Source: Burkholderiaceae bacterium (GTDB lineage Bacteria > Pseudomonadota > Gammaproteobacteria > Burkholderiales > Burkholderiaceae). Taken from it: a DNA stretch of 11,222 nucleotides. The translations under genes and the position numbers were made by a program. A model generated the notes under the pieces. It searched no databases and was not told the DNA's origin. It was given only the letters and a program-made list of their open reading frames with translations. The number at the start of each line of letters is the position of its first letter. Position 1 is the first letter of the stretch. Shown piece by piece: positions 2,944 to 10,198 of the stretch. The DNA lies in assembly GCA_947380285.1 (NCBI GenBank), contig CANCQD010000076.1, positions 1 through 11,222 of the forward strand, written 5' to 3'.

Positions 2944-3648
2944 CTAAGTTATTGAATTTAATGTATTTATTTTTCTAGGGCGTCCACGATGTCTTATAAG
3001 CGCTGTTTCTGGCGCCTCTTTAAAGAGTTTTTTTGCATAAATATCGCTCACCCAAGGCTTTGATCGAATAAGCGATTCTGTAATTTGGCGGTCTTCCCAG
3101 TGGGGTGCGCCCTCTTTTACAAAGTTAGACCAGTTCATCTGTCGCTCAAAAGGGGTATTACCCAGCTTCCAAAAGTGCTGATGATCTACCAACCAAGGTT
3201 CGGCGTTGCCGCCGATATGCGTTGCAAAACTAGTCCAAGCAGAACTTTGGGGATTGGATTCATATCCAGCTCTTACTGGGTTCAGTTCTATATAACGCTG
3301 GCAGCGCAAAAAATAATCCGGATCAATTAGAGATGATCGATACCTTCCTTCCCAAATAGTCCCCGATCGATGGTGTTGCTGATTAAAATATTGCGCATAA
3401 CGACGTCCGAGAGACTGCATGGTCTTTGCAAGCGAATCTTCTTTTTGGGGTGTCATTAATAAATGTACATGATTGGGCATCAAGGCAAAAGCGTGCACTG
3501 CGCAGGCAAACTGTCTGGCAGCTTCACGTAACCACTCTAAATAGATGCGGCGATCAGCATCAGCAAAGAAAAGCGTTTCGCGATTATTGCCGCGGACCAT
3601 CACATGCATTGCTTGGCCTGGAATTACTATGCGCGCTTGCCGTGCCAT
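2944..3648 (-). CDS. REP-associated tyrosine transposase (RAYT), Y1/HUH superfamily
   Basis: This 234-residue protein belongs to the IS200/IS605-like Y1 transposases that cut and join single-stranded DNA at REP palindromes, usually as single domesticated genes and not as full insertion sequences. The N-terminus ARQARIVIPGQAMHVMVRGNN is typical. The metal-binding HUH motif is MPNHVHLLM (His60 and His62). Candidate nucleophile tyrosines are Tyr84 and Tyr87 in RRYAQYFN, followed by the family stretch GTIWEGRYRSS (96-106) and YIELNPVRAGY (about 119-129). The C-terminus carries a basic RGRPRKI tail resembling an AT-hook. The frame is complete, so the enzyme may be active. Its ATG is 12 bases after the mrcA stop, with no clear ribosome site, which suggests transcription from the mrcA promoter and perhaps reinitiation. 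A REP-like inverted repeat lies downstream. No flanking direct repeats or second end were seen. Confidence 0.9.
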   Translation of the reverse strand: MARQARIVIPGQAMHVMVRGNNRETLFFADADRRIYLEWLREAARQFACAVHAFALMPNHVHLLMTPQKEDSLAKTMQSLGRRYAQYFNQQHHRSGTIWEGRYRSSLIDPDYFLRCQRYIELNPVRAGYESNPQSSAWTSFATHIGGNAEPWLVDHQHFWKLGNTPFERQMNWSNFVKEGAPHWEDRQITESLIRSKPWVSDIYAKKLFKEAPETALIRHRGRPRKINTLNSIT

Positions 3649-3660
3649 TTTGAAAACGAA

Positions 3661-5997
3661 CTATTGCAGTTCGCGCGCACCACCATTATTTGAGAATTCT
3701 GGAATAAACCAGTCCCCATCTACCTGAGTTACTCCGCTAGGCACTTCACGTGTTTCTTGCGGTACATCCTTTAAAGCCGTTGCCATGTAGGAGATCCACA
3801 TTGGTAGAGCGAGCCCGCCACCAGTTTCACGGTCACCCAGGCTTGCGGGCTTATCAAAACCAATCCATGCAATCGCAACTACCTTAGGGTTGTAGCCAGC
3901 AAACCAAGCATCATGAGAGTCATTGGTTGTCCCTGTTTTACCCGCAATATCGGTTCGGCCCAACTTGCCGCGTGCCGAAGCTGCGGTACCTGTCTTGGTT
4001 ACTTCTTGCAACATGCTATCCATCACAAAGGCGGTACGTGCATCTAGTACACGAGTCGCATCCTCACGTGCACGAGTAGGCTTTGCTTCGAACATCACAG
4101 TGCCTTTAGAGTCCACCATCTTGTCAATTAAAAATGGGTCTACACGATAGCCGCCATTAGCAAACACACTATAAGCAGAGGCCATCTGTAACGGCGTTAC
4201 TGAACCCGCACCCAACGCCATAGTTAAATAGGGGGGGTGCTTCTCTGGCTCAAAACCAAAACGCTGAATATATTCCTGGGCATAAGAAGGGCCGATGGCA
4301 CGAATGATGCGAACCGAAACCAAGTTCTTGGATTTTGCTAAAGCATTACGTAAGCGCATCATCCCGTCATATTTGCCATCGTAGTTTTTTGGCTCCCAAG
4401 CCTGACTGCCTGTTTCCATACTCCCAATTGATAAAGGCGCGTCATTCACCATAGTGCTAGGGGTAAAACCTTTTTCAATGGCTGCCGCATAGATGAATGG
4501 CTTAAATGAGGAGCCTGGTTGACGCAAAGCTTGCGTCACATGATTAAATTGATTGCGACGGAAATCGAAGCCACCTACTAAAGAGAGTATTGCCCCCGTC
4601 TCTGCGTTCATAGACACAAAAGCTGCCTCAACTTGCGGCAGTTGGGCTAGCTTCCAGAGACCCCCATCCGACAGAAGGCGCACTACAGCGCCAGGACGCA
4701 AACGTTTTTTAGGTTGAGTGCTGTCGGTAATAGATGCGGCCGCTAATTTCATTCCATCACCTTTAATGGTGATGGTATCTCCTGTAGCAATCATGACCTG
4801 CATTTCTTTTGGCTTAACATCAAGCACAACACCAGACTGCAAATCATCCAGTTGTGGGTAAGCTAGCAATGCTTCGTCAATCGCGCGCTGGCGCTTCACA
4901 GCATCTTCTGGAAGATTAATAAAACCTTCAGGTCCACGATAAGCATGTCGCAGGTCGTATTCAAAAATTCCGCGGCGAACGGCTTTATAGGCTGCATCTT
5001 GATCTGCCTTCAAGATGGTGGTGTAGACGTCGATTCCTTGTGAATAAATCGCCTCACCATATTGAGTGAATAACAATTGGCGAACCATTTCAGCCGGGAA
5101 GTCAGCTCGAACTGCAAATTCATTGCCTAGGCCGCGAATATGCAACTCTTCAATCATCGCTTTTTGGTATTCCTCTGGCGTGATGTACCCCAGATCGCGC
5201 ATGCGCTGCAGAATGTACTCTTGACGAATCTTGGCGCGACGGAAATTACTAACAGGGTTATATGCTGAAGGCGCTTTTGGCAAACCGGCCAACATGGCTG
5301 ACTCTGCAATAGTGATGTCTTTTAGTTCTTTGCCAAAATAAATCTGTGCCGCACTTGAGAAACCATAAGCCCGCTGTCCTAAGAAAATCTGGTTCATATA
5401 GATTTCCAGAATTTTATCTTTGGTTAACTGAGATTCAATTTCCCAAGCGAGTAGTACTTCGTATATTTTGCGACTAAAGGTTTTTTCGTTGCTGAGAAAG
5501 AAATTGCGTGCTACTTGCATAGTGATAGTTGAAGCACCCTGCGAAAGATGGCCACGCAAATTAGTTGCAGCTGCCCGCAAAATTCCGACGTAATCGACGC
5601 CGCCGTGCGAGTAGAAGCGATCATCCTCAATAGCTAAAACCGCATTACGCATGCTTTGAGGAATTTCATTTAATGGGATGACCTTGCGCCTCTCCTCACC
5701 AAACTCACCAATTAAGACCTTATCCGCCGTATAAATACGCAGAGGCGTTTTAGGGTTGTAATCCGTTAAGACCGAGATCTTGGGTAGATTGGGCTTAGCC
5801 ACCAAAAAGGCATAACCCATTAAGAGCGTAATCACTAAAGCAAATACCACGCCAATGATCAGCAAGGCTTTCATAAGCGGGTTGCTTGAATTTTTACGTG
5901 GCAGGCCTGGCTGTCCTCGCGTCTGCCGAGGACGTCTATCGGATGGGCGAATGGGACGCTGATTCAGCGGCGGCTTGTCTTTTGGAGGTAAGGCCAT
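3661..5997 (-). CDS. mrcA: Penicillin-binding protein 1A (bifunctional peptidoglycan glycosyltransferase/transpeptidase)
   Basis: This class A PBP polymerises lipid II into glycan strands and cross-links the stem peptides in the periplasm, anchored in the inner membrane. The 778 residues show a basic, proline-rich cytoplasmic N-terminus (1-40), a membrane helix (about 43-66), a GT51 glycosyltransferase domain with catalytic Glu124 in EDDRFYSH and GASTITMQVARNFFL (154-168), an OB-like linker domain (about 385-450), and the transpeptidase domain with SSFK (nucleophile Ser496, Lys499), SKN (556-558) and KTGT (687-690). All catalytic motifs are intact and the length is normal for the family. It is divergent from the secretin-aroK-aroB operon, the classic arrangement beside pilMNOPQ. 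The RAYT gene follows its TAG stop by 12 bases. The ATG at 5997 has no evident ribosome site, and a TATAAT box lies only 8 bases upstream. Also called ponA in this group. Confidence 0.97.
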   Translation of the reverse strand: MALPPKDKPPLNQRPIRPSDRRPRQTRGQPGLPRKNSSNPLMKALLIIGVVFALVITLLMGYAFLVAKPNLPKISVLTDYNPKTPLRIYTADKVLIGEFGEERRKVIPLNEIPQSMRNAVLAIEDDRFYSHGGVDYVGILRAAATNLRGHLSQGASTITMQVARNFFLSNEKTFSRKIYEVLLAWEIESQLTKDKILEIYMNQIFLGQRAYGFSSAAQIYFGKELKDITIAESAMLAGLPKAPSAYNPVSNFRRAKIRQEYILQRMRDLGYITPEEYQKAMIEELHIRGLGNEFAVRADFPAEMVRQLLFTQYGEAIYSQGIDVYTTILKADQDAAYKAVRRGIFEYDLRHAYRGPEGFINLPEDAVKRQRAIDEALLAYPQLDDLQSGVVLDVKPKEMQVMIATGDTITIKGDGMKLAAASITDSTQPKKRLRPGAVVRLLSDGGLWKLAQLPQVEAAFVSMNAETGAILSLVGGFDFRRNQFNHVTQALRQPGSSFKPFIYAAAIEKGFTPSTMVNDAPLSIGSMETGSQAWEPKNYDGKYDGMMRLRNALAKSKNLVSVRIIRAIGPSYAQEYIQRFGFEPEKHPPYLTMALGAGSVTPLQMASAYSVFANGGYRVDPFLIDKMVDSKGTVMFEAKPTRAREDATRVLDARTAFVMDSMLQEVTKTGTAASARGKLGRTDIAGKTGTTNDSHDAWFAGYNPKVVAIAWIGFDKPASLGDRETGGGLALPMWISYMATALKDVPQETREVPSGVTQVDGDWFIPEFSNNGGARELQ

Positions 5998-6005
5998 ATG
6001 TCTAA

Positions 6006-6011
6006 ATTATA
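6006..6011 (-). promoter_or_regulatory. Candidate -10 box of mrcA, very close to the start codon
   Basis: The minus strand reads a perfect TATAAT at 6011-6006. The -35 position is weak (TTTAGG or TTAGGG around 6035-6029, spacing 17-18). Only 8 bases lie between the -10 box and the mrcA ATG, so transcription from here would give a leader of about 0-3 bases. An 8-base palindrome TTGGCCAA (6018-6025) lies between the two boxes and could be an operator. The rest of the divergent intergenic region, to 6138, shows a short CAGTC/GACTG inverted repeat (6057-6061, 6069-6073) but no clear promoter for the plus-strand operon. Confidence 0.4.
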
Positions 6012-6138
6012 GGGTGCTTGGCCAATTTCCCTAAAAGCTCCAAAACCCTTGTTTTGCAGTCCGAAATAGACTGATTTCTGACACAAGGCTAAAGCCAGAC
6101 CGATAGATTTACAGCTCTTAAAACTAAAGAATGTGGGC

Positions 6139-6831
6139 ATGCCAGCTCGCCATATTTCTACCCAATCCTTTGATGATATTTTGAGTGATTTGGGTGATGA
6201 TCCCGCCATCCCAGATCCGCATGGAATACGTAAACCCCCTCCCCAGCAAAGCACTTCACCTAGGCCTTCAATTCAAGGCAAAGGCAGCTCCCTTTCAGAG
6301 CCCATCAACGGTGTTGCTATCAAACATTTATTCCAAAAATTGGGAAGCCCCGCCATTCTCATTGGGGTCTTAATAGCAGTATCTGCCACCTTTTTTGCTG
6401 CTTATAGCTTACTCAATAGCCAATCTCAAAATGCTCTTGAGGGAATTCAAAAGCAGTTGTCTGACCTGAAAAAGGAGATGACGTTAATGCGCGATGAAAT
6501 CCATCAAGATCAAGATGATCTATATCTGGCAATGGATGAAATTGAAGTAAGTGTTCACTCTTTAATAGATAAAAAGCCTGAAGTCAGAGTTTTCAGCAGG
6601 CCGCATATATCCACTCATGAGTCAGAGCTCCGCCGCTGGCGCTACCTTGGCGCCTCCATAATGGGCACTTCGCATCAAGCCTACTTTCATACGGGGAAAA
6701 GCCATCATAGCTTTGAAAAAGGAGCACAGGTTTTGGGAGATTGGCGCCTGAGCAATATCGAAAAAGAACTTGTAACTCTTAACAATTCCCAAGGTAAATC
6801 TTTAGTTCTAAGGGCCTTGAAAAGCGAATGA
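6139..6831 (+). CDS. Membrane-anchored coiled-coil protein with PilP/GspC-HR-like C-terminal domain, partner of the secretin
   Basis: I recognise no named family over the full length; the description is from sequence pattern. Residues, counted from the alternative GTG at 6133: a polar, proline-rich and probably disordered cytoplasmic part (1-65), one hydrophobic helix (about 73-94, IGVLIAVSATFFAAYSLL), a charged heptad-rich segment likely to be a coiled coil (about 98-145), and a small C-terminal domain (about 168-229). That last part, from RYLGAS through HTGKSHHSFEKGAQVL, GDWRLSNI and LVTLNN, has the beta-rich pattern of the homology region of PilP and GspC, which docks on secretin N0 domains. 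Topology would be N-in with the domain in the periplasm. It sits where pilMNOP normally precedes pilQ, and its TGA overlaps the next ATG (ATGA), implying translational coupling. The ATG at 6139 is preferred over GTG 6133 because AAAGA (6126-6130) then lies 8 bases upstream. Function as inner-membrane partner of the secretin is an inference. Confidence 0.75.
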   Translation: MPARHISTQSFDDILSDLGDDPAIPDPHGIRKPPPQQSTSPRPSIQGKGSSLSEPINGVAIKHLFQKLGSPAILIGVLIAVSATFFAAYSLLNSQSQNALEGIQKQLSDLKKEMTLMRDEIHQDQDDLYLAMDEIEVSVHSLIDKKPEVRVFSRPHISTHESELRRWRYLGASIMGTSHQAYFHTGKSHHSFEKGAQVLGDWRLSNIEKELVTLNNSQGKSLVLRALKSE

Positions 6832-7949
6832 AGATCGATCCAGAATGCATCAAGAAATACTTAAAACATAGCACCTCTTGGTTAGTCCTACTGCTGCTGT
6901 TATCAACCAATGCAACAGCTGGGCATCCGCCCTCACAAAATCATTTTCTGAGCCCAATCAGCCTGCAATTTACCGACATTGAAATAACAGAACTTTTACA
7001 AACAATGGCCAAATTGGGAAACACTAATTTTTTATTAAGTGAGGCCATTAAGGGAAATGTTTCGGTAGACCTTAGAAATACTCCCTGGCAAACAGCTCTC
7101 CACTCGATTTTGGCCAGCCGAGGATTGCGACTTTTGCGCAATGGCGAAATCTACTGGATAGGGCCTCATGCAGAAATACAAGCCTATCAGAAATTTCGTC
7201 GTGAGGATGCCGCCCTGCCCTTTGGAGGAGACCATATCAATAGTCCAAGGCAAATTCTCATTGAGGCTCGAATAGTCGAAGCAGATGAACGCTTTGCTCG
7301 AGAGTTAGGCGTTAAGCTTGGCTATCAAGCTAATGGCATTGGAGGCAACGTAGATCAAAAGCTGCTTGGCAATATCGACTTGGGAGGAGCTGGATTAGGT
7401 GGTTTTAACCCAGCCACGATGGCCGCCACCTTGGTCTCTAGAAATGCCAGTCGCATTCTTCAGGCAGAACTTTCTGCACTTGAATCAGAGGGCCAGGGAA
7501 AGATTCTTTCAAACCCTCGCATCATGACCGGCGACCAAGTAAAGGCCACTATTGAGCAAGGTACAGAGCTCCCATACCAAACGTCTAGTCAAAATGGCAG
7601 TAAATTGCAATTCAGAAAAGCTAATTTACGCTTAGAGGTACTTCCAAAAATTCATCCAGATGGAAAAATTTCAATGCTGGTTGGCATCAATAAAGACACT
7701 GTAGGCATGAAAACAGAGCAGGGCTATGCAATTGATACCAAAAGTCTGAGCTCAGAGGTGACTGTAGAAAACGGAGGAACAGCCATCATTGGTGGCATTT
7801 TTCAAACCACTGAAAGGGAGGATGAAGTCAAAATCCCTCTATTAGGAGATATACCCTTCATTGGTCATTTTTTTCGCCATAAATCCAAATTACAAGATAA
7901 AACAGAGCTACTTGTCTTTTTAACCCCGACCGTTCTCGACAAACCCTAA
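6828..7949 (+). CDS. pilQ: Short PilQ-like secretin (outer-membrane channel), N0 plus secretin domain only
   Basis: Secretins form large gated outer-membrane rings for type IV pili, competence or type II/III secretion. This 373-residue protein has a signal peptide (hydrophobic 18-31, likely cut after NATA near residue 31, no lipobox), an N0/STN domain (about 43-113, ending GEIYWIGP as in PilQ) and a secretin domain (about 141-370). The secretin domain shows PRQILIEARIVEADERFA (140-157), KILSNPRI (225-232), VKIPLLGDIPFIGHFF (334-349) and TELLVFLTP (359-367). PilQ proteins usually exceed 600 residues with AMIN and N1 domains. Both seem absent here: only about 27 residues separate N0 from the secretin core, too few for an N1 domain. 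Its ATG overlaps the upstream gene by 4 bases and aroK follows after 12 bases, as pilQ-aroK do in many proteobacteria. The name pilQ rests on position and N0 wording; the pathway served is not shown. Confidence 0.9.
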   Translation: MKIDPECIKKYLKHSTSWLVLLLLLSTNATAGHPPSQNHFLSPISLQFTDIEITELLQTMAKLGNTNFLLSEAIKGNVSVDLRNTPWQTALHSILASRGLRLLRNGEIYWIGPHAEIQAYQKFRREDAALPFGGDHINSPRQILIEARIVEADERFARELGVKLGYQANGIGGNVDQKLLGNIDLGGAGLGGFNPATMAATLVSRNASRILQAELSALESEGQGKILSNPRIMTGDQVKATIEQGTELPYQTSSQNGSKLQFRKANLRLEVLPKIHPDGKISMLVGINKDTVGMKTEQGYAIDTKSLSSEVTVENGGTAIIGGIFQTTEREDEVKIPLLGDIPFIGHFFRHKSKLQDKTELLVFLTPTVLDKP

Positions 7950-7961
7950 TAAAATCGAAGG

Positions 7962-8486
7962 GTGAACTCTTCGACAAACAATATCTTTCTGATCGGCCTC
8001 ATGGGCGCCGGGAAGTCGACCGTCGGGAAAGTCTTGGCAAAAAAATTAGGGCGTCGCTTTCTGGATGCCGACCATGTAATTGAAGAGCGTTGTGGCGTAA
8101 AAATTCCTGTCATCTTTGAGATGGAAGGTGAAAATGGCTTTCGCAAAAGAGAAGCTCAGGCTATCCGTGAAATTACTGCCGAGCAAGACATTATTTTGGC
8201 GACTGGCGGTGGTGCAATTCTATTGCCAGAAAATCGTCAAGCATTAAGTAAGCATGGCATTGTTATTTATCTTCATGCAAACCCAATGGAGCTTTGGCAT
8301 CGCACTAAAGGTGGCGAGGGACGACCTCTACTTAAAAACGGTGATGCCAAAAAAATCCTAGAGAATTTATATGCGATCCGCGATCCGCTCTATCGCGAAA
8401 TTGCCGACCATGTGATTGAGACTGGAAAGCCCAGCGTTAATCAACTAGTCAACACCTTAATCATGCAGCTTGAACTTTCCGCTTAA
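7962..8486 (+). CDS. aroK: Shikimate kinase
   Basis: AroK phosphorylates shikimate at the 3-hydroxyl with ATP, the fifth step of the shikimate pathway to chorismate and the aromatic amino acids, in the cytoplasm. The 174-residue length is typical. Seen motifs are the Walker A loop GLMGAGKST (12-20), the DAD motif with Asp35 and Asp37 for Mg and shikimate, Arg61 in FRKRE, the substrate loop ATGGGAI (80-86), and lid residue Arg121 in GRPLL. The start is GTG at 7962, since an in-frame TAA lies 12 bases upstream and no ATG precedes the Walker A loop. The only ribosome-site-like bases (GAAGG) directly touch the GTG, so initiation may rely on coupling to the secretin gene, whose stop is 12 bases upstream. 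It is followed by aroB in the same operon. Confidence 0.96.
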
Positions 8487-8499
8487 ATACATTGGCACT

Positions 8500-9585
8500 A
8501 TGATGAAAACACTTGAAGTGAATCTTGGCAATCGCAGTTACCCAATTTATATTGGTACAGATTTGATTGATCAAGCAAGCCTATTTAGCGCCTGTGAAAA
8601 AGCGACCTCTATCTATATCGTCAGTAACACTACGGTTGCTCCACTTTATGCTGAACGCCTGACTAAAACACTCAGCACCTTTGGTAAACCAGTTAGGACA
8701 ATTGTTCTGCCTGATGGTGAGTCATATAAGGACTGGAAAAATCTCCAACTGATTTTTGATGATCTATTAAAGTTTGGGGCTGATCGCCAAACCATGTTAG
8801 TTGCCTTGGGTGGCGGCGTCATCGGCGATATGACTGGGTTTGCTGCAGCTAGCTTCATGCGTGGCATTCGCTTTATCCAAGTACCCACTACCCTGCTTGC
8901 CCAAGTAGACTCTTCCGTTGGCGGCAAGACTGGGATCAATCACCCGCTTGGTAAAAATATGATTGGCGCCTTTCATCAGCCTGTTGCAGTAGTTGCGGAC
9001 CTGAACACTCTGAAAACTTTACCGCCAAGAGAACTTTCTGCGGGTCTTGCAGAAGTGGTCAAACATGGCGCCATTGCCGATGCCCAATTCTTAGATTGGA
9101 TTGAAGCAAATTCAAAAATATTATTGACTTGTGACAATGAAGCTATGGGACACGCAGTTTTGCGTTCATGCGAAATTAAATCTGCAGTGGTATCTGCCGA
9201 CGAAAGAGAAGGCGGCATTCGGGCAACCCTGAACTTTGGACATACCTTTGGTCATGCGATTGAAGCGGGAATGGGTTATGGCGAGTGGCTGCATGGAGAA
9301 GCTGTTGGTTGCGGTATGGTACTCGGGGCAGACTTATCGCGTCGCCTCAATTACATCAGCGAAGCAGACGTTCAGCGGCTCACCAAAATCATTCAATCCA
9401 TGAATTTACCCATTACACCGCCAAAATTTGGCGCAGAACGGTATATGGAGCTCATGCAAGTCGATAAAAAAACCGAGGGCGGGCAGATCCGCTACGTTGT
9501 TTTAGAAAGAATTGGTAAAGCCCAGATTAAAAGTGTTGCTGACGCCCAGGTAATTGAAACATTAAGTGCAACTGGTGCCGCTTAA
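8500..9585 (+). CDS. aroB: 3-dehydroquinate synthase
   Basis: AroB converts DAHP to 3-dehydroquinate, the second step of the shikimate pathway, using NAD and a divalent metal (Zn or Co). From ATG 8500 the protein is 361 residues, the usual length. Motifs are the NAD-binding [11 protein letters not shown] (104-114), [12 protein letters not shown] (136-147), and the metal ligands Glu185 in GLAEVVKHG, His248 in GHTFGH and His265 in HGEAVG. A second ATG directly follows at 8503 and either may be used; an upstream TTG at 8470 lies inside aroK and is unlikely. The gap to aroK is 13 bases, consistent with one operon. The TAA stop overlaps the stop of the convergent cyaY gene. Confidence 0.97.
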
Positions 9586-9959
9586 ATTAAGCCAATCTTA
9601 ACGGCTTGACCTGCCTGAGCACTCGCAAACTCAGTCAGATCGCTCAACAGCTCTTTTCCTGTTTTGGTATCAAGCCATAATGGCTTTGCCATAGTGCCAG
9701 CCCATCGATAGTGATATCCACCAGATTTGGCGGCAACCCAAATCTCATGCAAGGGTGGCTGAGTATTCACCACAATGACGCTTTTATCCTTAAAGCGAAT
9801 ATTGATGACATTGCCGCCCTGACGCTCAACATCCAAATCGAGGTCCAAGGCATCATCGGCAGCCTCTAATGCAACCTCTATAGATTGCAATAAATTACTT
9901 CCCAGTTGATAAAACTGCTTGTCATCAATGGTTTCTACACCTGAATTATTTGGATTCAT
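9582..9959 (-). CDS. cyaY: Iron donor/frataxin-like protein CyaY
   Basis: CyaY is the bacterial frataxin, an iron-binding cytoplasmic protein that interacts with the IscS/IscU machinery and modulates iron-sulfur cluster assembly. With the start at 9959 it is 125 residues, slightly longer than the roughly 106-residue E. coli protein. The alpha-beta frataxin pattern is clear: an acidic first helix and edge ([14 protein letters not shown]), then [25 protein letters not shown], the signature GGYHYRW, and a C-terminal helix ending in QAGQAV. The start was chosen because AGGA (9970-9967) lies 7 bases upstream of this ATG and the protein fits the family; an upstream in-frame ATG at 10004 would add 15 residues with no better ribosome site. 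It is divergent from lptM-lysA, a common arrangement in betaproteobacteria. Confidence 0.94.
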
Positions 9960-10006
9960 ACCGGAGTCCTGCATGCTATATTCAATCATTCGTTTTAGAG
10001 ACATTC
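9960..10006. promoter_or_regulatory. Divergent cyaY / lptM-lysA intergenic region with shared -10-like sequence
   Basis: The 47-base gap must hold or overlap the promoters of both units. TATATT (9977-9982) is a good plus-strand -10 box for lptM, and the same bases give TATAGC (9980-9975) on the minus strand for cyaY. Neither has a convincing -35 box at 17 bases, so both assignments are weak. The cyaY ribosome site (AGGA, 9970-9967) lies at the left side, and a GAGA element (9998-10001) precedes the lptM ATG. Confidence 0.3.
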
Positions 10007-10198
10007 ATGATAGCGATTCTTAATAGAACACTCTGCTTTAGCCTTCTAATATCCCTTGTAGGGTGTGGGGTAAGGGGGCCGCTATATTTACCAAATATAC
10101 CGCCAGCCCCACCCGCCCCTACAGAGCCAGAAACTAAAGGCAAACTATATCCGCCCCAACCTTCTGCTAGCCCAAGCAATTCTTCATCGGCCAAGTAA
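10007..10198 (+). CDS. lptM: LPS translocon maturation chaperone LptM-like small lipoprotein
   Basis: This 63-residue protein starts with a lipoprotein signal peptide (hydrophobic 9-19) and lipobox LVGC, with Cys20 as the predicted lipidated residue. The next residues, CGVRGPLYLP, match the short conserved LptM (formerly YifL) motif CGxxGPLYxP. LptM in E. coli binds the LptD-LptE outer-membrane LPS translocon and helps LptD acquire its correct disulfides. The rest is a proline- and serine-rich tail without defined structure. ATG 10007 is chosen because the signal peptide begins directly there; the longer open frame from 9950 would put polar residues first. Its TAA overlaps the lysA ATG by one base (TAATG), so the two are probably co-translated, and the lptM-lysA pair beside cyaY is a familiar arrangement. 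Confidence 0.9.
   Translation: MIAILNRTLCFSLLISLVGCGVRGPLYLPNIPPAPPAPTEPETKGKLYPPQPSASPSNSSSAK

Follow-up and report, generated by a model that had tools for sequence, protein, structure and literature searches.

A two-gene secretin module in the pilMNOPQ slot of Polynucleobacter, the likely envelope-spanning part of a minimal competence pilus

Results

Gene content of the mrcA/aroK-aroB slot

The sequence examined here (the window) is the whole 11,222-nucleotide stretch of contig CANCQD010000076.1, assigned to a Burkholderiaceae bacterium. It is a segment of a Polynucleobacter chromosome, and the nearest relative found was locus L001 of Polynucleobacter sp. UB-Tiil-W10, with 97% identity for the secretin and 88% for orf1. 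The interval between mrcA and aroK contains only two plus-strand genes, orf1, which encodes a protein with one membrane-spanning segment, and a gene for a short secretin; the stop codon of the first overlaps the start codon of the second in an ATGA (Table 1). We think it likely that the pair supplies the envelope-spanning part of a minimal diderm type IVa pilus used by Polynucleobacter for competence (DNA uptake). Statements on gene content beyond the window rest on the genomes of relatives.

In E. coli the same slot is occupied by hofMNOPQ. Two members of the same family as the window, with genomes of 3.8 and 7.0 megabases (L260 and L263), carry pilM, pilN, pilO, pilP and a pilQ encoding 715-725 residues there. 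A third, with a genome of 2.0 megabases (L261), retains pilM-N-O-P-Q beside mrcA (aroK was unmatched at that locus), so that genome size alone does not cause the loss. Pfam scans of these relatives identified PilM and PilN in each of them, PilO in both of the two scanned and PilP in the one scanned. The initial annotation had described only two ATGA-coupled genes between mrcA and aroK-aroB, with no PilM, PilN or separate PilO in the slot, and this was borne out: both reading frames are real, their order recurs in related loci and nothing else lies between the flanks.

Table 1. Features of the window and of the complete Polynucleobacter alcilacus genome G005
Sequence	Feature	Position	Strand	Remark
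Window	mrcA	3661..5997	-	divergent flank defining the pilMNOPQ slot
Window	mrcA/orf1 divergent intergenic region	5998..6138		141 bases
Window	orf1, bitopic HR-domain protein	6139..6831	+	230 residues from conserved ATG; first GTG at 6133; proposed single replacement of PilN/O/P
Window	orf1 residues 1-24, N-terminal motif	6139..6210	+	R-x-[ILFV]-x4-[FY]-[DE]; presumed cytoplasmic
Window	orf1 residues 73-91, transmembrane segment	6355..6411	+	most hydrophobic 19-residue segment; hydropathy; helix 60-144
Window	orf1 residues ∼96-145, coiled coil	6424..6573	+	presumed periplasmic; approximate limits
Window	orf1 residues 159-230, HR domain	6613..6828	+	GspC/PilP/HofP-like
Window	orf1 stop/secretin start overlap	6828..6831	+	ATGA
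Window	Mini secretin, PilQ family	6828..7949	+	373 residues
Window	Secretin residues 46-113, N0/STN region	6963..7166	+	
Window	Secretin residues ∼139-373, pore domain	7242..7946	+	joined to N0 without N1 domain
Window	aroK	7962..8486	+	flank
Window	aroB reading frame	8470..9585	+	flank; true start not fixed
G005	Short PilB/PilC/PilD	1455796-1458409		
G005	Major pilin	1038311-1038835		Pfam Pilin (PF00114) and N_methyl; also matches PpdD
G005	Four minor-pilin-like genes	1539415-1541209		between rib genes
G005	ComEC	1781872		
G005	ComEA-type HHH_3 protein	701891		
G005	DprA	1266714		
G005	ComF-like protein	1150934		

Conservation across the genus

We used the secretin to collect 72 related loci, in which the order mrcA, orf1, secretin, aroK, aroB recurs. 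Both aro genes were present in 72/72, orf1 in 70/72 and mrcA in 68/72, and the loci without an orf1 or mrcA match (L028, L035, L044 and L059) are situated at contig ends. Of the 68 loci in which the start of orf1 is complete, 42 have the ATGA at the orf1 stop, showing that coupling is usual, not universal, and 67 have orf1 open for at least 200 codons. Identity to the window across the loci is 75-97% for the secretin and 25-88% for orf1, which diverges fast. Nonetheless both genes are under purifying selection, the ratio of nonsynonymous to synonymous substitution rates (dN/dS) in six pairs being 0.16-0.38 for orf1 and 0.03-0.08 for the secretin. When four pairs were split by region, the N-terminal motif and the HR domain were the least changed parts of orf1.

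Our orf1 profile (A2) had 39 rows, the window orf1 and those of 38 of the 72 loci, with L066 left out because its orf1 carries a stop; a smaller alignment (A1) comprised the window and 15 loci. In deep branches of the genus A2 fails, giving no match in 15 of a sample of 61 genus genomes. We examined nine deep slots, from eight of these 15 genomes and from G028, and in 9/9 a gene of 170-270 codons lies directly before a short secretin. Two of the nine genes (L268 and L269) match orf1 by phmmer, and the other seven are putatively orf1-like on the grounds of place, layout and alignment. The motif is visible in eight of the nine; L276 lacks it and was omitted from the corresponding alignment (A6, 15 rows), in four rows of which (L265, L266, L268 and L275) a later in-frame start near the motif was chosen, assuming that the motif stands at the very N-terminus. 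Three weak A2 matches within the family (G120, G214 and G284, at most 24.9 bits) were taken as chance; G214 also appears weakly in the list of PilO matches.

The rapid divergence of orf1 could suggest that the pair is a functionless, decaying remnant of a pilus operon, as could a number of broken copies. In the P. necessarius isolate PPGSP2 (L066, from 9318) orf1 stops after 125 codons, and in L264 (G160, 7190-8727) orf1 and secretin are both fragmented. A stop also interrupts orf1 at G030:C1:24097-24722, in a genome whose pilB is fragmented as well, and at G300:C1:81377-82066, and the secretin match of G036, probably a further broken copy, lies within a frame of only 183 residues. However, dN/dS well below 1 for both genes in all six pairs led us to reject this explanation, and the long open orf1 frames, together with the short secretin and orf1-like gene in every deep slot, make it extremely improbable. 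P. necessarius lives as a symbiont, a life that would fit the loss of DNA uptake in the strain with the broken orf1 at L066.

The orf1 protein

The orf1 protein begins with a conserved N-terminus, continues with one transmembrane segment and a coiled coil, and ends in a domain of the GspC-HR/PilP/HofP fold. In the clade of the window a conserved LGxDPAI comes after the N-terminal motif. The HR domain escaped Pfam and NCBIfam scans of the window protein and was recognised only by profiles and a fold search. Profile homology to PilP, HofP and GspC HR proteins reached 94.1% and 94.6% in hhalign (80.4% with A2), with a single negative control at 0.2%, and the best Foldseek match of the HR fold was GspC. 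The PilP/GspC-like domain that the initial annotation had placed in the upstream protein was thereby recovered. The HofP model matched 6 of the 39 orf1 members below its cut-off (best E 0.046), T2SSC weakly matched one diverged protein among ten other members (E 0.015), and BLASTP of HofP against orf1 alone gave a weak 20.4 bits.

Other matches were set aside. Some orf1 members matched TssO, Fzo and other entries, and PDB matches included designed bundles and cytochrome b562 chimeras, with one chimera (2.2e-5) ranked above PilP; all of these were taken as coiled-coil matches. A resemblance between the N-termini of orf1 and PilO was seen by eye only and is not claimed. Of 848 homologues 120 were listed, mostly under the name 'hypothetical protein' and in some cases under misleading ones: gas vesicle protein, superinfection exclusion B, PulJ/GspJ, YhcB and FtsB (P0019, P0021, P0055, P0081 and P0100).

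The secretin

The window secretin passes the cut-off of the PilQ model TIGR02515 (303.8 bits, cut-off 284.35) and fails that of the GspD model (173.9 bits, cut-off 351.35). Compared with the PilQ structure 9sh1, positions 17-104 of the secretin profile correspond to residues 331-418 (N0) and positions 121-352 to residues 503-752 (pore). The 84 residues of 9sh1 between these parts, the N1 region, have no counterpart in the profile, and nothing in it aligns with the AMIN region. A six-sequence alignment showed the same N1 gap, relative to HofQ and two PilQs, in the secretins of the window and of two deep branches. What had been called a reduced secretin thus consists of N0 and pore only. An AlphaFold2 model of the protein was discarded (predicted local distance difference test score 45.6).

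The two proteins could instead belong to a type II-like secretion system of reduced size, in which a small GspC (orf1) and a small GspD (the secretin) serve a protein-exporting pseudopilus. The layout of orf1, with one transmembrane segment and a C-terminal HR domain, is GspC-like and unlike that of the lipoprotein PilP, GspC is the top Foldseek match, one diverged orf1 member weakly resembles T2SSC, and one minor pilin of the genome G005 (see below) scores best with GspH. We regard this as unlikely, since the secretin exceeds the PilQ cut-off and falls far below that of GspD, the slot is that of pilMNOPQ, the major pilin of G005 matches PF00114 and PpdD, and com genes are present.

PilM, PilN and PilO outside the slot

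It had been suggested that pilMNO could lie elsewhere in the genome. PilN was found in 4 of the 61 genus genomes, in frames of 557-580 residues. PilM_2 had a match in 47/61, of which only three cover the N-terminal part of the model; these three are all among the four PilN genomes and sit in frames of the same 557-580 residues. The other PilM_2 matches score ∼18-28 bits and cover the actin-like core only (∼170-305 of the model). The one in G005 was scanned and is MreB, and the remaining core-only matches, in frames of similar length or of ∼410 residues, were provisionally assigned to MreB or FtsA. PilO, searched with the insensitive model PF04350, turned up in 80 of the 249 family genomes and in none of the 27 where orf1 matched strongly. 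Queries with HofM, HofN, HofO and HofP had no match in the whole of G005.

The suggestion found no support in most of the genus genomes searched, but the nearest relative, G001, carries a separate, fuller pilus island (L102 9988-12934). This island encodes PilY1, a 571-residue PilM-PilN fusion, PilB with MshEN, PilC, PilD with A24_N, a secretin with the Secretin_N (N1) domain and a 425-residue protein with a PilP-like end (E 0.001, below cut-off). It thus merges the alignment proteins in another way, as the PilM-PilN fusion and the protein ending like PilP. A Tad-like cluster adjoins it (L103 4903-13047), with a TadA-like ATPase and a secretin having T2SS-T3SS_pil_N and BON domains. A source of PilM/PilN is present in a few strains. 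The island does not account for the two-gene module, since it brings its own parts and its PilM/PilN marker is seldom seen among the genus genomes sampled.

These data also bear on the view that the module serves an ordinary type IVa pilus, with genes for PilM, PilN and PilO at other sites that escaped detection. The fusion in G001, the insensitivity of PF04350 and the occurrence of some PilM_2 match in most genomes would be in line with it, but the rarity of PilN and of N-terminal PilM matches, the MreB identity of the match in G005, the lack of PilO beside strong orf1 matches, the negative Hof queries in G005 and the absence of the N-terminal domain from the short PilB described below make it very unlikely.

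The motor locus and its ATPase

Beside coaE and zapD, L098 encodes a PilB of 359, a PilC of 348 and a PilD of 166 residues, and the order pilB-pilC-pilD-coaE is also found in L271-L274. The short PilB has no match to the PilB model before position 175 and no MshEN domain, which is present in E. coli HofB and in 10/61 genus genomes, never at the short pilB. The PilD of this locus has Peptidase_A24 only, whereas the accessory PilD of G001 has A24_N as well. Both PilB and PilC score best with type IVa pilus/Hof models and stay below the cut-offs of ComGA (250 against 300 bits) and ComGB (146.8 against 240 bits). In L098 a transporter-like gene ends right at the pilB start; at G011:C6:3460-4398 the short PilB lies inside an open frame of 815 residues, not ∼375, which may be a transporter-like gene fused to pilB.

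A T2SSE-type ATPase match was obtained in 61/61 genus genomes. Scoring at most 26 first-look candidates per genome, we found the short PilB to be the sole ATPase above 100 bits in 39/61, with no PilT seen there; these 39 include G011, with its long frame, and G020, with an internal stop, and some of them are drafts. Where all candidates were scored, a single ATPase exceeded 100 bits in 10 of 14 genomes. The stripped module recognised in the initial annotation is thus part of a wider reduction that extends to PilB, PilC, PilD and PilT. Secretin matches numbered exactly one in 37/61 genomes, none in 3/61 and two or more in 21/61. Further ATPase (∼470-490 residues) and secretin (∼700-800 residues) frames occur in G002, G003, G015, G027 and others, and the size of these extra pairs suggests a type II secretion system in some members of the genus.

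Pilins and com genes in a complete genome

G005, the genome of locus L012 (P. alcilacus), is a single contig of 1,999,960 bases. It has five pilin candidates, one major and four minor-like (Table 1), and further pilins are possible. The first minor-pilin-like gene has a weak ComGE/ComGF match and the fourth matches GspH best and ComGD weakly. A comparable run of minor-pilin-like genes (109, 217, 109 and 184 residues) stands amid rib genes in L255 (7001-8780), its third protein having no family match and no clear prepilin leader. A PilT query of G005 found only the short PilB.

The pilin and com genes of this one genome point to DNA uptake, which the initial annotation had listed as a possible role, as the most likely function. 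A minimal adhesive or surface-sensing pilus, not concerned with DNA, would also go with the PilA-type major pilin and with the varying number of N_methyl pilin motifs (0-7 per genome), which were seen in 39 of 41 genus genomes. It appears quite unlikely, given that 39/61 genomes have no second strong PilB/PilT-type ATPase and that ComEA, ComEC and DprA are retained in G005.

Other features of the window

An IS200-like (Y1_Tnp) transposase gene adjoins mrcA (2944-3648, minus strand). A frame that looks similar by eye occupies the same mrcA-side place in the sister-clade locus L258 (11987-12670), and the recurring frame may be domesticated. On the other side of the window a frataxin (CyaY) frame (9582-10004, minus strand) overlaps, head to head, a frame for a small LptM-like lipoprotein (9950-10198, plus strand).

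Discussion

Comparison with known systems

The Hof/Com system of E. coli (HofMNOPQ with HofBC and PpdD) shares with the Polynucleobacter module the mrcA/aroK-aroB slot, a HofQ-like secretin without AMIN, a HofP-like HR domain and a pilB-pilC pair beside coaE-zapD. Polynucleobacter differs in having no HofM, HofN or HofO, in carrying the HR domain on a transmembrane coiled-coil protein, and in the absence of N1 from its secretin and of MshEN from its PilB. The type II GspC-GspD pair, for which structure 3oss shows docking of HR on N0, has the same layout and HR fold as orf1, whereas the Polynucleobacter secretin is of PilQ type with only N0 before the pore.

According to a review of type IV filaments, the monoderm Com pilus (ComGA, ComGB, ComC and ComGC-G) consists of a major pilin, four minor pilins, an ATPase, a platform and a prepilin peptidase, with no PilMNOP (PMC10191384). 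G005 has candidates for all eight of these parts, and in G005 and L098 the ATPase, platform and prepilin peptidase likewise occur without a PilMNOP-type set; Polynucleobacter adds the outer membrane, the secretin and orf1, and its PilD lacks A24_N. The best reading is that the Polynucleobacter machine resembles a monoderm Com pilus with a two-protein outer-membrane adaptor. To judge from its sequences it was probably derived by loss from a type IVa pilus, since PilB and PilC score best with type IVa pilus/Hof models and below the ComGA and ComGB cut-offs. PilMNOP is also described as reduced or replaced in type IVb and Tad pili (PMC10191384); other proteins replace it there, whereas Polynucleobacter retains the slot of a type IVa pilus and an HR domain of PilP type.

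A possible mechanism

The secretin would form the outer-membrane gate, and orf1 would be anchored in the inner membrane, its N-terminus on the cytoplasmic side and its coiled coil spanning the periplasm. Its C-terminal HR domain would bind secretin N0, as the HR domains of PilP and GspC do, and its conserved N-terminus would bind the motor through the short PilB, PilC or both; the alignment work of PilM-N-O-P would then fall to one bitopic protein. The short PilB, PilC and PilD would build the pilus from the major pilin and a few minor pilins, and DNA would be handed on to ComEA and ComEC. As there is no PilT, either one ATPase would power both directions or retraction would be passive. We tentatively propose, as an idea that falls somewhat short of probable, that the N-terminal motif binds the shortened PilB/PilC directly while the HR domain holds the secretin, that PilM-N-O and the PilB N-terminal domain are dispensable, and that one motor both extends and retracts the pilus. 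A contact of PilM-type proteins with the ATPase would be in keeping with the joint loss of PilM and the PilB N-terminal domain.

Several observations weigh against a minimal competence pilus. The nearest relative, G001, has a second pilMNOPQ-like locus, a finding that the initial annotation had named as contrary to its proposal; its PilM-PilN fusion could in principle supply PilMN to the two-gene module, although the island has its own PilB, PilC, PilD and secretin. The PF04350 control misses E. coli HofO, so that divergent partners can escape, and phmmer with HofP misses orf1 itself in G005, for which reason the Hof searches of that genome can miss divergent proteins. No Foldseek E-value for orf1 was below 1e-3 and no orf1 member reaches a curated Pfam cut-off, while the poor secretin model leaves the docking of HR on N0 a prediction. 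Among the minor-pilin-like genes of G005, the third (109 residues) matches no family and the second (213 residues), scanned only as its G018 copy, had no match. ComM was not found in G005, the best candidate being a chelatase-type AAA protein of 344 residues, and literature passages on the subject do not report transformation of Polynucleobacter. To these may be added the broken copies of both genes described above.

Implications

What is new here is a two-gene variant of the type IVa alignment/secretin module, which is real and conserved; searches of one open-access library gave no published description of it. High recombination rates have been reported for Polynucleobacter paneuropaeus in a study (PMC11283720) whose text does not contain the words competence, pili, pilus or natural transformation, and the module may be a route for this recombination. 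The review cited above asks why proteins of PilMNOP type are carried by other machines if a platform and an ATPase suffice for the monoderm Com pilus, and suggests that such proteins perhaps only stabilise the other components (PMC10191384). A diderm lineage that has dispensed with PilM, PilN and PilO and has kept the HR domain shows which function could not be lost. What persists in this lineage is the HR domain, together with an anchor in the inner membrane whose N-terminal end is conserved; PilM, PilN, PilO, the N-terminal domains of PilB and PilD, the secretin N1 and AMIN domains and PilT appear dispensable. Polynucleobacter thus offers, in widespread freshwater bacteria, a natural test of the parts that a pilus machine needs.
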